Assembly: GCA_019239825.1 (NCBI GenBank)
Contig: JAFAZK010000280.1
Coordinates: 28,214-92,213, forward strand
Length of the DNA: 64,000 nt
Origin: Verrucomicrobiota bacterium
GTDB lineage: Bacteria > Verrucomicrobiota > Verrucomicrobiia > Chthoniobacterales > JAFAMB01
Direction: 5' to 3'
Shown here: one piece after another, positions 24,460 to 41,514 of the stretch
Layout: the number at the start of each line of letters is the position of its first letter
Numbering within the stretch: the stretch's first letter is position 1
Notes under the pieces: model-generated
Told to the model about the DNA's origin: nothing
What the model saw: the letters and a program-made list of their open reading frames with translations, nothing else
The model's database searches: none
Made by a program: the position numbers and the translations under genes

Positions 24460-27400
24460 CTACACCTCAAACGCCAGGATACGCGGAAGCTCGCCGGGAT
24501 ACGCAAAACATAGCAGCGAATATCCGATCCCGGAGATTCCGCGAAACAGGCTCGGTGAGAAGCAGAAGTTTTCGCCCACACTCTGTTGAAGACGAAAGAA
24601 CGCTCCTCGCAGACCGCGTTCGAGAGTTTGCTCGATAAGATTCGCGGCACTAGCCTGGAACTCAGGCCGGTTCTCCCGGCTGGCGATATAACTCAGGACC
24701 TCGGCAATGCCGAAGTTTCCGCAGCACCAGTGGTCCATGCTGCCTCGCTGGCGGATCTTTTCAACGACGATATCCAGCTCGTCGCGGGAAAGCTTTTGCG
24801 GTGTCTCCACGCCGACCGTGGCTAAAAGAATGCCGGCGGCGCCGTTGCACCAGTTATTGAGAGAACCTTGCGGTCCTCTTACTGCGATTGGCCAAGAACT
24901 GTTTTTCGGGTCAAAAAAACCTCTCATCAGTTTCAAGGCTCGCTCAACGAGTTCGTTGAACTGTGGATCACAGAAAGTGCGGCTGTATTCGGTCAAGGCA
25001 AAACTGATGCCCGCTAAGCCGTGAGCAAAACCGACATAGGAATCGCCGTTAGACCTGGTCCAGCCGAGCTCGGGATGGTAACGAGCCGCCAGCATCCGAG
25101 CTGCAGCGAGCGCGTTGCCGGCCGCACCGGCGTCTTTTGTGACCTGATAAAGTCGTGTAAGCGCGACTAACAATCCGGCCACACCCGAGATTATGTCAGG
25201 CTCATCCGTTTCAGGCCTTAATTTGACTCTTTTATTCAGCGCTAGAGCCAGTGCAGTCCAATCACTGTCCTTGGTTAGCCTTCCCAGAACCAAAGCGCCG
25301 TAAATCAGAGCCCCGACTCCATTGCAGATACCGGGAGGATAGTCAGCAGGCGGCTCGAAGACAGCCAGCCTTTCCATGAATCTCGATCCCGGGCGTTTCG
25401 GGAAAGCGGATCCTGTTAACTGGTCAACCGCCGCTAGAAAAATGAGCGGCCCCATATCTCCCAGATAGATCCCTTCGCGGTGAGCAGCGCTGAGATCGCG
25501 CGGAAGAAAACTCGGCGGATCCCATAGATACGGGCCATCTGATTTACTGATTCGCTGAGTTAATTCGTTAGCAAACTGCTGGACGACTGTTTCGGCCTGC
25601 GCGCCGGTTAACGGCTTTTCGATGGTCGCTGGAAAACGTCTGAGGGATTCCTGGATCACCTCCGTCTGAAAGCGGAAATCGTCTGCTCCCATGGCAGCGA
25701 TTCGTTCGAAAACGATATCGATCGGTTTCTTTCGAGCCGCGCTGGGCAGATGAAAGTTTCGACCAAGTAATTCCGTGCTGTTCAGCCGAATATGGAACCT
25801 CGGTATATCCAAGCCGAGCAATGACTGAACCTCGAAATCGATCAGCGTCTTGGTTTCTGGGGTTAGAGCGTTGTCTCGCAACGGGACACGATAAAGCTGC
25901 TCAAAAACGATGCTTTGGCGCACGCCAGAGGTCAGACATTTGGGAGCACGTGCTTGCTTCAGCAGGAAACCATAAAGGGTCGTCGGACGGTAAACGAACC
26001 TGGTCTTACTTTGGGCAAATTGTTCGATTAACCGGCTAAACTCGGTTTTCCGATCTGATACGAAATGATAGAGCCGGCCAAAGCCCGTTATGAGTTCGGC
26101 TTGGTAACGCCGCACATCCTGGATCTCATTGCCCAAACGGACAGTGTTGCCGGCATGCCTGGGTGATCGCGGCTTGGTGACTGGCCGCATCTGGTCGGAG
26201 TTGAGATTTTCCCAGTCAGTCACGTTTGTGTGTGTTAGGTCCACAAAACCGCTGCCCAGGCCGCAATAATCTGCCGGTACATGGGAGGCGCTTAATTGCC
26301 AGAAGGGCAACAAACCGGTCTCGATCACTGATGGGTTTCCTAGTTCCAAGACGTGCGCAGCGCCAGGTGTCGAATCGAACTTCGCGCTTCCACGTCCAGG
26401 GTGAAAAAATGATTCCGTGTCGATAGGAACCGGGCGATCGCCGGCAGCGATCACATTTTCGAATCCCAGATCACATCCATTCAGCAGATAAGCCAGACAG
26501 AGGAGTTCGCCACCGCCCCGGTAATAATGCCGGACATCTTGGGCGTTTTGACAGGGAGATTGTTCGATAAATTCTTCCCAGCCATATTCCTCACGCTTGA
26601 TTACTCGCGCCAGGCGCCAAGCCGCGGTGAATCCGACCCCGGCAAGCCACCGATCAACTCGAACAAGCGCTTCAGCAATGGAAAGGTCTTTAGGCTTGTA
26701 TAGCACCTGCTTGCCGTCGTCGAAAATGAGCAAGATCACTTGCTTACCTCCATCGTGCCGATCCGATATGCCCGTTTTTGTCCGTACTAGTTTTGGCCAG
26801 CGATTCTCTGACTGACCCAACGCGATCACTTCAGAAAAGTCAGTTCGGAGACGCTCCAGGAATAGGTTAGTGGAGTTAGTCCAGGATGTGAGTAAATGGC
26901 TGATCTGGCGGGCTAAAACCGGGAATCGTTCAAATAAGATCCGGTACTCGCTTTGGCGGACGCTTTGGATAAAGGTCTCGAAACTGCCGCCATTCTGCTG
27001 ATGTTGAGAGAATTGCGCGAAGCTCGGGAAAGAAGCAAGTTCGGAGATTTCTTGGAGAAGCGAAAGCAGCAAAGAATCGATCGCCGATGCCGTCACGGCG
27101 TCGGGTGACAGCGATAAGTTCTGACGAGCGAAAGCGATCAGGGGTAGCCAGAGAACTGAAAATGGAAATGCTTGGCTCCCCTCCAAATCAACGGGGGGAT
27201 ACTGAAGAGCTTGGTTGAGAACTTCTTCCCATCGATCCCTTTGGGTCACCGGTTCTGGCGGCTCGGAGGTGACATAAACGGCCTGCTCTTCGGAAACACC
27301 AAGCGATCTCAGGCGAGCAGAAAATCGGTCATAAGTGCCCGTCGTGAATACCTGTTTCCAATCGCGGAAATCGTCTCCGGGTTCCGGAGTTGCCTGGGGT

Positions 27401-27474
27401 TCGGTAGGCGCTGCGGCTAACCGCTCGTGAAGATAGTGAGCTTGGGCAGAGAGGGCAGCTAATGATTTAGACAT
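24460..27474 (-). CDS. lanM: Type 2 (class II) lanthipeptide synthetase LanM
   Basis: 1004 aa. Dehydratase region QVLLIFDDGKQVLYKPKDLSIAEALVRVDRWL and HYYRGGGELLCLAYLLNGCDLGFENVIAAGDRPVPIDTESFF; C-terminal LanC-like domain with WCNGAAGIL and HWCCGNFGIAEVL zinc motifs. Confidence 0.95.
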   Translation of the reverse strand: MSKSLAALSAQAHYLHERLAAAPTEPQATPEPGDDFRDWKQVFTTGTYDRFSARLRSLGVSEEQAVYVTSEPPEPVTQRDRWEEVLNQALQYPPVDLEGSQAFPFSVLWLPLIAFARQNLSLSPDAVTASAIDSLLLSLLQEISELASFPSFAQFSQHQQNGGSFETFIQSVRQSEYRILFERFPVLARQISHLLTSWTNSTNLFLERLRTDFSEVIALGQSENRWPKLVRTKTGISDRHDGGKQVILLIFDDGKQVLYKPKDLSIAEALVRVDRWLAGVGFTAAWRLARVIKREEYGWEEFIEQSPCQNAQDVRHYYRGGGELLCLAYLLNGCDLGFENVIAAGDRPVPIDTESFFHPGRGSAKFDSTPGAAHVLELGNPSVIETGLLPFWQLSASHVPADYCGLGSGFVDLTHTNVTDWENLNSDQMRPVTKPRSPRHAGNTVRLGNEIQDVRRYQAELITGFGRLYHFVSDRKTEFSRLIEQFAQSKTRFVYRPTTLYGFLLKQARAPKCLTSGVRQSIVFEQLYRVPLRDNALTPETKTLIDFEVQSLLGLDIPRFHIRLNSTELLGRNFHLPSAARKKPIDIVFERIAAMGADDFRFQTEVIQESLRRFPATIEKPLTGAQAETVVQQFANELTQRISKSDGPYLWDPPSFLPRDLSAAHREGIYLGDMGPLIFLAAVDQLTGSAFPKRPGSRFMERLAVFEPPADYPPGICNGVGALIYGALVLGRLTKDSDWTALALALNKRVKLRPETDEPDIISGVAGLLVALTRLYQVTKDAGAAGNALAAARMLAARYHPELGWTRSNGDSYVGFAHGLAGISFALTEYSRTFCDPQFNELVERALKLMRGFFDPKNSSWPIAVRGPQGSLNNWCNGAAGILLATVGVETPQKLSRDELDIVVEKIRQRGSMDHWCCGNFGIAEVLSYIASRENRPEFQASAANLIEQTLERGLRGAFFRLQQSVGENFCFSPSLFRGISGIGYSLLCFAYPGELPRILAFEV

Positions 27475-27547: not shown

Positions 27548-27682
27548 TTAGGCGATGTTGACCGTGCTCAACACGTTGGAGCAGCTGACGCTCTGAATAG
27601 AGGTGGTATCGTTGATGCCGCCGGCAACGTCTTCGAGTTGTTCGTCGCTAATGGATTCTGGTTTGTTGGTTTCTTCGCTCAT
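27548..27682 (-). CDS. Lanthipeptide precursor copy 1 (44 aa, double-glycine leader)
   Basis: Hand translation MSEETNKPESISDEQLEDVAGG|INDTTSIQSVSCSNVLSTVNIA*; not in ORF track (below size cutoff). Confidence 0.92.
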   Translation of the reverse strand: MSEETNKPESISDEQLEDVAGGINDTTSIQSVSCSNVLSTVNIA

Positions 27683-27748
27683 ATTATCCGTAGGTTTATG
27701 GTTCTCGTTTGTTAAGTCGGAATTGGCCGGCTTTTCTCTGGCGCGGCT

Positions 27749-27883
27749 TTAGGCGATGTTGATCGTGCTCAACACGTTGGAGCAGCTAACGCTCTGAATA
27801 GAGGTGGTATCATTGATGCCGCCGGCAACGTCTTCGAGTTGTTCGTCGCTGACCTGTTCTGGTTTGTTGGTTTCTTCGCTCAT
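27749..27883 (-). CDS. Lanthipeptide precursor copy 2 (44 aa)
   Basis: Hand translation MSEETNKPEQVSDEQLEDVAGG|INDTTSIQSVSCSNVLSTINIA*. Confidence 0.92.
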   Translation of the reverse strand: MSEETNKPEQVSDEQLEDVAGGINDTTSIQSVSCSNVLSTINIA

Positions 27884-27952
27884 ATTAAATCGGTTTGTCC
27901 GGTTTTGGGTTTCTTTTAGGATCGGAGTTCGCCCATTCTTCCTGTGCCAGAC

Positions 27953-28087
27953 TTAGGCGATGTTGACCGTGCTCAACACGTTGGAACAGCTAACGCTCTG
28001 AATAGAGGTGGTATCGTTGATGCCGCCGGCTACATCCTCGAGTTGCTCATCACTGATCGATTCTGGTTTGTTGGTATCTTCGCTCAT
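27953..28087 (-). CDS. Lanthipeptide precursor copy 3 (44 aa)
   Basis: Hand translation MSEDTNKPESISDEQLEDVAGG|INDTTSIQSVSCSNVLSTVNIA*. Confidence 0.92.
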   Translation of the reverse strand: MSEDTNKPESISDEQLEDVAGGINDTTSIQSVSCSNVLSTVNIA

Positions 28088-28149: not shown

Positions 28150-28464
28150 TTAGAGGCTGGAATCCGGGCCTAAGAACGTGTTGTTCTCAGCGCTTAAGAA
28201 TCCGCCCGCTATTGTTTCAAGCTCGGCGTCCGAAAGGTTTGCATTCTGGTCCGGGAAATCCTTTGGCAAGACGATGTACATCAGATCGTCTGTCTCTTGC
28301 AGGAGTACTACCTTCAGCCGATCCGGTAATGTGGTGCCTAGTGCTCGCTCGACGGCGAACTTTGGGTTCGCTAGCAAGGATTCCCGAAACGCCTCATCTT
28401 TCAAGGCCGCCCTTACGAGTACCTCTTTGACGTCTTTTCGTGAGATATTCGAGTTGGAATCCAT
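28150..28464 (-). CDS. NHLP (nitrile hydratase-like leader peptide) family RiPP precursor
   Basis: ALKDEAFRESLLANPKFAVERALGTTLPDRLKVVLLQETDDLMYIVLPKDFPDQNANLSDAELETIAGG|FLSAENNTFLGPDSSL, typical NHLP leader with a GG site. Confidence 0.85.
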   Translation of the reverse strand: MDSNSNISRKDVKEVLVRAALKDEAFRESLLANPKFAVERALGTTLPDRLKVVLLQETDDLMYIVLPKDFPDQNANLSDAELETIAGGFLSAENNTFLGPDSSL

Positions 28465-28578
28465 TTCTACTCTTTGTCTCCGGTGTGCCCGACATCCACT
28501 TCCGTGTCCGCCGAGCTATTTAGCAATGGGTGTGCCATAACTACGTCTGTTGATTCAAGTATCTGGGATATGGTCAGT

Positions 28579-28594
28579 TGCATACATTTAGCCA
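28579..28594 (-). promoter_or_regulatory. Candidate sigma-54 (-24/-12) promoter driving the precursor genes
   Basis: Minus strand TGGCTAAATGTATGCA: TGGC-N8-TGCA, correct GG-N10-GC spacing, ~115 nt upstream of the NHLP start. Confidence 0.6.
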
Positions 28595-28620
28595 TTTTAG
28601 CTTCCTGACTGAACAACCCA

Positions 28621-28665
28621 AAAATGGAACTCCGATTCTCGAAAATGGAACGACAGCTCCATTTT
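28621..28665. promoter_or_regulatory. Candidate enhancer (UAS) for the adjacent sigma-54 activator: three AAAATGGARC half-sites
   Basis: AAAATGGAAC (28621), AAAATGGAAC (28642, exactly 21 bp later), inverted GCTCCATTTT (28656-28665). Confidence 0.6.
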
Positions 28666-28684: not shown

Positions 28685-29848
28685 TCACTCCTCTGGCTTC
28701 AGGCGATGGTGCCGCAGAAAATCCATGAACTTTTGATAGTGTTCCGGCCTGATATTGAGTAGGACACTCATCCGGCGATAACTGCCTCTGGCTGCTAACA
28801 GTCCCTGGGAGATTATCTCGCGGACCTGAGCTCGATTTAAGTCGCGGTCGAGAAAAGGCTCATGAACGACGTCCCAAAACGACCTCCCCTGCTCGACCAT
28901 ATCCTCGAATAGTTCATTCTTGCCGGTGCCCGGACCAGGTAAACTTGCTTGGCGAAGCTCGCTGACAAAATGATCTGGCTCTATGTACTTTGATTCCGCC
29001 ATGGAGAAGCCGATCGTGACGATGCTCCGGAGCTCCCGAACATTGCCCGGCCAGGGGTATCGCTCTAGAAACTTGATCGATGTAGGCGAGAATGCCTTCT
29101 TGAGGTTGTATTCCTGATTCAGCTTATCGACAAAATAACTAATTAATAGTTTCCAATCCTCATCGCGTTCCCGCAAAGCTGGGATATCCAAGGGAAAATA
29201 GCGGAGGCGGAAATAAAGATCTTGGCGAAAATGACCGGTGGCGATCATATCGCGCAGCGGTCTGTTAGTGGCTGCTATTACCCGAACATCCACCGAATAG
29301 GTTTTGGTCGAGCCCAACGGTTTAACTTCCTTTTCCGCGAGTGCTCGCAGCAACATGGTCTGAGCAGTGGGAGGAAGATCACCGACTTCATCCAGGAAAA
29401 CGGCGCCTCTGTCCGCCGCATCAAATAGACCTTTATGATCAGCGATGGCGCCGGTAAAGCTGCCTTTAACGTGCCCGAATAGTTCGCTAACGGTTACGTT
29501 GCCTTCGCTGTATTGTGGGCAATTGACCACCACAAAAGGCTCGCTAATGCGCGAGCTCATCAGATGGCAGGCTTTAGCAAATAACTCTTTGCCTACACCA
29601 CTCTCGCCTGTGATCAGGATGGTTTGATTGAATTTGGCGAACTTTTGAACTTTGTCTAAAGTGTCTCGCATTTTCGAACTGACACCGACTAGATCAACCG
29701 CTTGCTTTATTCCCCATTTCTCTAGGGACTTGACGCGGACCTGGAAGGCCACATCCGTCATGGTTTTGTCAGTTTCGCGGCTAACTTTCGTAGACGGAAA
29801 CGGAACCACGTTAGCGGTACTATCGCTCTCCATAAATGCAAGACACAC
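28685..29848 (-). CDS. Sigma-54 interaction domain transcriptional activator lacking a receiver domain
   Basis: GESGVGKELFAKACH (Walker A), GSFTGA loop, GAVFLDEVGDLPPTAQTMLLRAL (Walker B), RYPWPGNVREL; short N-terminus with no receiver. Confidence 0.92.
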   Translation of the reverse strand: MCLAFMESDSTANVVPFPSTKVSRETDKTMTDVAFQVRVKSLEKWGIKQAVDLVGVSSKMRDTLDKVQKFAKFNQTILITGESGVGKELFAKACHLMSSRISEPFVVVNCPQYSEGNVTVSELFGHVKGSFTGAIADHKGLFDAADRGAVFLDEVGDLPPTAQTMLLRALAEKEVKPLGSTKTYSVDVRVIAATNRPLRDMIATGHFRQDLYFRLRYFPLDIPALRERDEDWKLLISYFVDKLNQEYNLKKAFSPTSIKFLERYPWPGNVRELRSIVTIGFSMAESKYIEPDHFVSELRQASLPGPGTGKNELFEDMVEQGRSFWDVVHEPFLDRDLNRAQVREIISQGLLAARGSYRRMSVLLNIRPEHYQKFMDFLRHHRLKPEE

Positions 29849-29928: not shown

Positions 29929-29995
29929 CCCATAAATAGCATGGCTTTTGCCGGCGGCCTATTCTGATCGCGACGAAAGCCATGTTATTTATGGG
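29929..29995. terminator. Long inverted repeat between transporter and activator genes
   Basis: CCCATAAATAGCATGGCTTT ... AAAGCCATGTTATTTATGGG: 20-bp arms, one mismatch, 27-nt loop. Confidence 0.65.
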
Positions 29996-33084: not shown

Positions 33085-33120
33085 GGCAGTTAGATAGGCG
33101 CTAACGCCTATCTAACTGCC
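33085..33120. repeat. Hairpin 2 of three in the transporter gap
   Basis: GGCAGTTAGATAGGCG-CTAA-CGCCTATCTAACTGCC, perfect 16-bp arms. Confidence 0.85.
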
Positions 33121-33123
33121 CAT

Positions 33124-33171
33124 AGCCTGCGTTCTTAAAAAATCGCCGACGATTTTTTAAGAACGCAGGCT
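33124..33171. repeat. Hairpin 3; member of the AGCCTG...ATCG-NNGA-CGAT...CAGGCT family; likely also terminator
   Basis: AGCCTGCGTTCTTAAAAAATCG-CCGA-CGATTTTTTAAGAACGCAGGCT, perfect 22-bp arms directly after a transporter stop. Confidence 0.85.
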
Positions 33172-40158: not shown

Positions 40159-41514
40159 ATGATCGCAAAGCCGGATTTCATGAGAGCGCTGATAATTGAT
40201 GATGAAAAAGCAATCCGGAGTTCAACCGTCATTGCTATCCGAGCTGAGGGACATGTTGCCGAAGGTGCTGACAGTAAAGCGGTTGGTCTCCTGAAATTGC
40301 AGGAGGACGCTTACGATCTCGTCTTTCTCGACCTTCGCCTTGGAGATGAAGACGGTCTCGAAGTTCTGGAAGACATCAAACGAACATTTCCGCAAGTCCA
40401 GGTCGTGGTCTTTACTGCTTACGCATCAGTGGCTTCTGCAGTAACCGCGATGCAGAAGGGAGCCTTTGATTACCTGGAGAAGCCTTTTACTCCGGAGAAC
40501 CTCCGTCAAATCTTGGGCCGGGTCGAAAAACAGCGGAAGCTTGAAACCAAGATCGTCGAGTTGCAGCGCGAGATCGATCGCCAGAATCCGAGCGTCGATT
40601 TTTCTTCGGAAGACCCGGCCATGAAATCGGCGATAGAAATTTTGTTCAAAGCTGCGCCAACCCAAGCGGCCATCCTTTTGTTGGGGGAGAGCGGTACGGG
40701 CAAGAGTGTTTTGGCAAGGGCCATTCATGACCGGAGCGAAGCGAGAGACGCGCCTTTTGTTACCGTAAGTTGCCCTAGCCTGTCTCGCGAGTTGCTCGAG
40801 AGCGAACTATTTGGGCATGTGAAAGGCGCTTTTACGGGCGCGATCAGAGATACCTGGGGCAAGGTCGCGGCTGCGGAGGGTGGAACCTTGTTCCTCGACG
40901 AAATTGGCGAACTGCCCCTTGAGATCCAGCCGAAACTACTGCGTTTACTCCAAGAGCGGCAGTACGAGCGGGTCGGTGAACACAAGATCCGGGTTACCAA
41001 TGCCAGGGTCATAGCGGCGACCAATAACGACCTAAAAGAACGAGTGCGGGTCGGGAGTTTCCGCGAAGATCTTTACTATCGGCTCGACGTGATCTCGGTT
41101 CGGATCCCGCCTCTGCGGGAGCGACTGCATGACTTAGACCGGATCACTAAATCGTATCTCGAATTCTTTTCTCGCCAGCTAGGGCGGCCCCGCTTGGCGT
41201 TTAGTGATGGCGCGTTAAAGAGACTCAACAGTTATCGGTGGCCTGGTAATCTTCGAGAACTGAGAAACACGATTGAACGAGGGGTAATCCTATCGCCGGA
41301 CGACTTTCTCAGTGAAAGGTTTATACCAGAAAATCCCCCAGCGCCTCTCGACGCCAGGATTTCAATCGGGAGCGATGTCAGTCTGGAAGCTTTGGAGGAG
41401 GCTCATATCCGTAGCATTTTGGGACGGGCATCCAGCTTGGATGCGGCGGCGAAGACCCTGGGGATAGACCCGGCGACCCTGTACCGGAAACGGAAGCGGC
41501 TCAATCTGCAGTGA
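40159..41514 (+). CDS. NtrC-family sigma-54 response regulator
   Basis: Receiver ([26 protein letters not shown]), [19 protein letters not shown]-terminal Fis-type HTH. Likely start 40180. Confidence 0.94.

Follow-up and report, generated by a model that had tools for sequence, protein, structure and literature searches.

The window analysed here, a stretch of 64,000 nucleotides, is part of a 6.67-Mb verrucomicrobial metagenome bin. Read along its minus strand, it carries genes for a TolC-like protein, an HlyD protein, two NHLM-type ABC transporters and a sigma-54 activator, followed by a control region and then by an NHLP-leader gene, three lanthipeptide precursor genes and LanM. The first gene of the operon behind the control region encodes an NHLP leader-peptide family protein of 104 aa (28150..28464, minus strand; TIGR03793, 5.9e-20, above the cut-off). 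Translation of the next stretch (27549..28087, minus strand) gave three near-identical double-Gly precursor peptides with starts at 28087, 27883 and 27682, and these are followed by a class II lanthipeptide synthetase LanM of 1004 aa (24460..27474, minus strand; TIGR03897, 1.1e-171). The NHLP leader, both ABC transporters, the HlyD protein and LanM all passed the cut-offs of their models (TIGR03793/03794/03796/03797 and TIGR03897), and with LanM, NHLP leader and NHLM transporters together the locus is a class II lanthipeptide / NHLP cluster.

The translated precursors follow the pattern MSE(E/D)TNKPE..DEQLEDVAGG-INDTTSIQSVSCSNVLST(V/I)NIA. The three genes, with cores INDTTSIQSVSCSNVLST(V/I)NIA, stand in tandem in the window (27549-28087); in the two related loci described below, L002 and L003, the cores differ (e.g. 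TMDNTITTENCSATLSTINL) and the leader is kept. Two strong inverted repeats lie between the two ABC transporter genes (33085-33165) and may be terminators or repeat elements. Between the transporter and activator genes (29929-29995), CCCATAAATARCATGGC pairs with its reverse complement in a long, imperfect inverted repeat; it is missing in both L002 and L003 and may be a small palindromic mobile element that has inserted upstream of the activator.

The activator (28685..29848, minus strand) is a protein of 387 aa whose residues 54-220 match Pfam Sigma54_activat at 4.4e-60, together with AAA_lid_14. Its AAA+ domain carries a GSFTGA loop, a variant of GAFTGA that is invariant across three orthologues and is shared by one further sigma-54 activator encoded in the genome; domain and GAFTGA-type motif together identify the protein as a bacterial enhancer-binding protein (bEBP). 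A domain search recognised no sensory domain in the first ~50 residues. At the other end of the protein, the NCBIfam PspF and NtrC models align through to residues 363-383, no Pfam HTH model matched, and hhalign gave a weak match to Fis-like domains, in register, at E 0.06. This C-terminal domain probably carries a Fis-like helix-turn-helix. Beyond the orthologues, relatives of the domain were found neither in 387 genomes of the phylum nor on plasmids, where the full-length matches listed were general bEBPs such as NifA with identity <42%. The bin, for which contamination is estimated at 8%, encodes one copy of a complete RpoN with AID, CBD and DBD domains, on another contig than the window, and about 18 other sigma-54 activator-like matches were present in the genome. 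A second sigma-54 activator domain lies within the window itself (40591-41334, plus strand) and shares 40% identity with the first across the AAA+ region.

In the control region, a previous reading of the sequence alone (the sequence-only reading) had described two copies of AAAATGGAAC exactly 21 bp apart and an inverted GCTCCATTTT forming a palindrome, and we confirmed both. The direct copies start at 28621 and 28642; the latter pairs with the inverted copy at 28656-28665 to give a 24-bp palindrome. Half-site 1 (AAAATGGAGC; 28656..28665, minus strand) is thus the distal arm of the palindrome and half-site 2 (AAAATGGAAC; 28642..28651, plus strand) its proximal arm, the two together reading AAAATGGAGC-N4-GTTCCATTTT, while half-site 3 (AAAATGGAAC; 28621..28630, plus strand) repeats half-site 2 in the same orientation 21 bp away. 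The palindrome pattern can be written AAAATGGARC-N4-GYTCCATTTT. AAAATGGARC occurs only 35 times in the 6.67-Mb genome, and a first-order Markov estimate predicts ~0.4 half-sites in 64 kb. Triples within 45 bp would number ~1.5e-8, which puts the observed one far outside what chance would produce. A fourth half-site (AAAATGGCTA, 3 mismatches), overlapping a promoter candidate that we reject below, was not conserved and was dropped.

Sigma-54 promoters were sought with the scan pattern TGGCACRNNNNTTGCW, the consensus being TGGCACR-N4-TTGCW with GG-N10-GC spacing. The sole zero-mismatch match to TGGCACRNNNNTTGCW in the 64-kb window was TGGCACACCCATTGCT at 28537-28522 (28522..28537, minus strand), with the -24 GG at 28536-28535 and the -12 GC at 28524-28523. 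The 6.67-Mb genome contains 7 perfect matches, whereas reversing the pattern as a control gave 4. A match to the consensus is thus weak evidence by itself, and the argument for this promoter comes from where it lies and from its conservation. From it, transcription is predicted to start near 28511, with a leader of ~47 nt up to the ATG of the NHLP gene at 28464, and the enhancer lies ~85-129 bp upstream of -24. As bEBP sites are usually spaced at 80-150 bp (PMC7910581) or 100-150 bp (PMC7057263), the spacing here is normal.

The sequence-only reading had instead placed the -24/-12 promoter at 28594-28579, with an unusually close enhancer (~27-71 bp) and a transcription start near 28567. The letters TGGC-N8-TGCA and the GG-N10-GC spacing are indeed present there on the minus strand, but the site has three mismatches to TGGCACRNNNNTTGCW, is one among 39 equally poor GG-N10-GC sites in the window, and has the perfect, conserved promoter 57 bp downstream of it. 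The comparison with related genomes also went against it, as set out below.

The activator was found in two further genomes, at L002 (G066:C171, 96% identity) and L003 (G065:C476, 90% identity). The precursor operons of both share the enhancer-promoter arrangement and contribute three more units, four in total in three genomes. L003 carries two of them, one directly after the activator and before small precursor genes, the other before an NHLP-leader gene. Since each copy in L003 stands before its own precursor genes, the element goes with the promoters and not with the 3' end of the activator gene. The whole enhancer-promoter unit is duplicated within L003 7633-9010, which may represent duplication of a regulatory cassette together with precursor expansion.

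Half-site 1 was retained with 0 mismatches and half-site 2 with at most one in 4/4 units; half-site 3 kept the same offset in 3/4 and was degraded in unit 1 of L003. Conservation of the half-sites in related loci was the test by which the sequence-only reading had offered to be refuted, and it came out in that reading's favor. The promoter was conserved with 0-1 mismatches in all four units, the sequences in the relatives being TTGGCACGGCCATTGCT, TTGGCATGACCGTTGCT and TTGGCACGCCCGTTGCT. From the start of the palindrome to the T of the -24 element the distance was 128, 130, 129 and 128 bp, so that dyad half-sites lie at a conserved distance within the ~80-150 bp expected of a bEBP upstream activating sequence (UAS). 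Pairwise identity between units was 70-94% for the enhancer and 68-91% for the promoter; the ~80 bp spacer between these two elements (28538..28620, minus strand) was 50-62% identical, which barely, if at all, exceeds the level of shuffled sequence. The conservation is shallow, since all four units derive from a single genus, represented by three metagenome-assembled genomes that are close relatives; saturation of the spacer partly answers this concern.

The promoter first proposed at 28594-28579 falls within this unconserved spacer. The aligned L002 sequence has TCGCC in place of TGGCT and has lost the GG, and the L003 units lack such a site. We therefore rejected it as a highly improbable promoter, and the unusual closeness of the enhancer was an artefact of measuring from it. 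A cross-species spacing test of this kind tells a real -24/-12 promoter from its look-alikes. The best IHF matches in the spacer had 1-2 mismatches, with about one expected by chance on our own estimate, and no IHF site is claimed. A small ORF running through the control region (73 aa if started at the GTG at 28688, 42 aa if started at an internal ATG that overlaps the rejected promoter) was also discarded as a gene because it had no family match and L002 preserves neither its ATG nor its frame.

We considered whether the palindrome could instead be an RNA hairpin, a terminator or attenuator behind the activator gene, with no role in binding protein. The element can fold (-10.5 kcal/mol) and starts 19 bp past the activator stop codon, but its arms are rich in A/T and, unlike a standard terminator, it has no long T-run behind it. 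The half-sites had originally been described as lying directly after that stop codon; this is correct for the window, but the closeness is incidental, as the corresponding gap measures 499 and 156 bp in the two relatives, whereas the interval to the promoter stays fixed. Moreover, the second copy in L003 is located behind precursor genes and not behind the activator, and the third half-site, a direct repeat, contributes nothing to a hairpin. An RNA element is thus a very remote prospect.

The distribution of the enhancer was assessed across 213 genomes of the order. The three genomes with the activator contain the palindrome without mismatch, one copy each in two of them and two copies in the third, and one stray palindrome exact to the pattern, with different inner letters, was found in G100. 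Scattered palindromes with 1 mismatch were present elsewhere in the order, the one examined, in G068, lying inside an oxidoreductase gene. That match and an inverted AAAATGGARC pair within an AraC-type gene (G000:C42) look like chance, and the idea of a wider regulon was rejected. Activator, NHLP leader and enhancer co-occur in the same 3/213 genomes, and all three are absent from the fourth genome of the genus. No second exact copy of the palindrome exists in the window's genome. As this genome holds ~18 other activator-like matches and no other exact enhancer, one activator with one target is the simplest reading.

A different regulator, such as a repressor or a cluster-specific co-factor, might bind the palindrome, with the activator acting elsewhere or without specific DNA binding. 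The activator's C-terminal domain has no Pfam match, its binding to the palindrome is itself deduced, and a two-turn repeat would suit many dimeric regulators. However, the fixed 128-130 bp to a sigma-54 promoter is bEBP geometry, the palindrome is confined to the cluster, and to those genomes, that have this activator, and the genome has ~18 other activator-like matches but no further exact palindrome. We regard a different regulator as unlikely.

What can be read directly from the DNA is the set of elements, how they are conserved, the fixed spacing between them, their joint occurrence with the activator and the complete rpoN in the bin. From them we propose, with a probability of roughly 0.86, that a dedicated bEBP-UAS-sigma-54 cassette controls the class II lanthipeptide operon. 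An activator-UAS-promoter cassette before the precursor operon had been suggested by the sequence-only reading, and the comparative evidence supports it well. The activator would bind the palindrome and the third half-site two helical turns away, and would assemble into an AAA+ ring on the enhancer while the intervening DNA loops. Its GSFTGA loops would then remodel RNA polymerase-sigma-54 held closed at TGGCACACCCATTGCT, and transcription would proceed from the predicted start through the NHLP-leader gene and the three precursor genes, and probably LanM. These steps are modelled on bEBPs in general, which bind enhancers ~100-150 bp upstream, form AAA+ rings and remodel sigma-54 closed complexes by means of the GAFTGA loop (PMC7057263). 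Because no sensory domain of its own was recognised, the activator is probably controlled either through the level at which it is expressed or by a partner protein in trans, as is PspF; control in trans is known for both PspF and HrpRS, neither of which has a sensory domain (PMC7057263).

More tentatively, and with somewhat less than even confidence, we suggest that a single verrucomicrobial lanthipeptide cluster has a private sigma-54 circuit with one activator and one target. It would combine a sensorless activator, whose C-terminal DNA-binding domain falls outside the present Pfam models, with a previously undescribed three-half-site enhancer that it recognises, and the target cassette would have been duplicated alongside precursor genes in one relative. 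A dedicated system of this type (one activator, one 45-bp enhancer, one promoter) would offer a handle with which to induce the cluster in a laboratory host, in this case a cluster of uncultured soil Verrucomicrobiota.

Where their regulation is known, lanthipeptide clusters are mostly under two-component systems. Within the data set of PMC10663231 these were the main form of regulation, and in the open-access literature, of which our coverage was incomplete, we found no lanthipeptide cluster reported to have a sigma-54 activator. Natural-product genes of Myxococcus xanthus are an established case of sigma-54 control (PMC7910581), which has also been proposed widely for PKS/NRPS clusters (PMC3665592). 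The best reading of the locus is a known kind of circuit on what would be an unusual target. In its leader family, both ABC transporters, HlyD protein and LanM, each above the model cut-offs, the locus resembles NHLP/NHLM bacteriocin and class II LanM clusters. Other NHLM transporter loci of the phylum differ from it, as 0/12 had a sigma-54 activator in the flanks examined (mostly 8-9 kb per side where the contig allowed), in a search that included a positive control.

Like PspF and HrpR/HrpS, the protein is an AAA+ activator without a recognised N-terminal sensory domain of its own, with a GAFTGA-type loop and an enhancer upstream of a sigma-54 promoter. In contrast to PspF-type bEBPs, the locus showed no PspA-type partner gene, most of the identity lies in the AAA+ domain, the enhancer has a sequence of its own and the loop reads GSFTGA. 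The arrangement is also similar to that of Nla28 of M. xanthus, which pairs sigma-54 promoters with bEBP half-sites 80-150 bp upstream at specialised-metabolite genes (PMC7910581). The targets of Nla28 are polyketide and non-ribosomal peptide genes with mostly intragenic promoters, whereas the target here would be a lanthipeptide (RiPP) operon; and Nla28 is a developmental bEBP with several targets (PMC7910581), whereas the activator described here is encoded beside what is apparently its only one.
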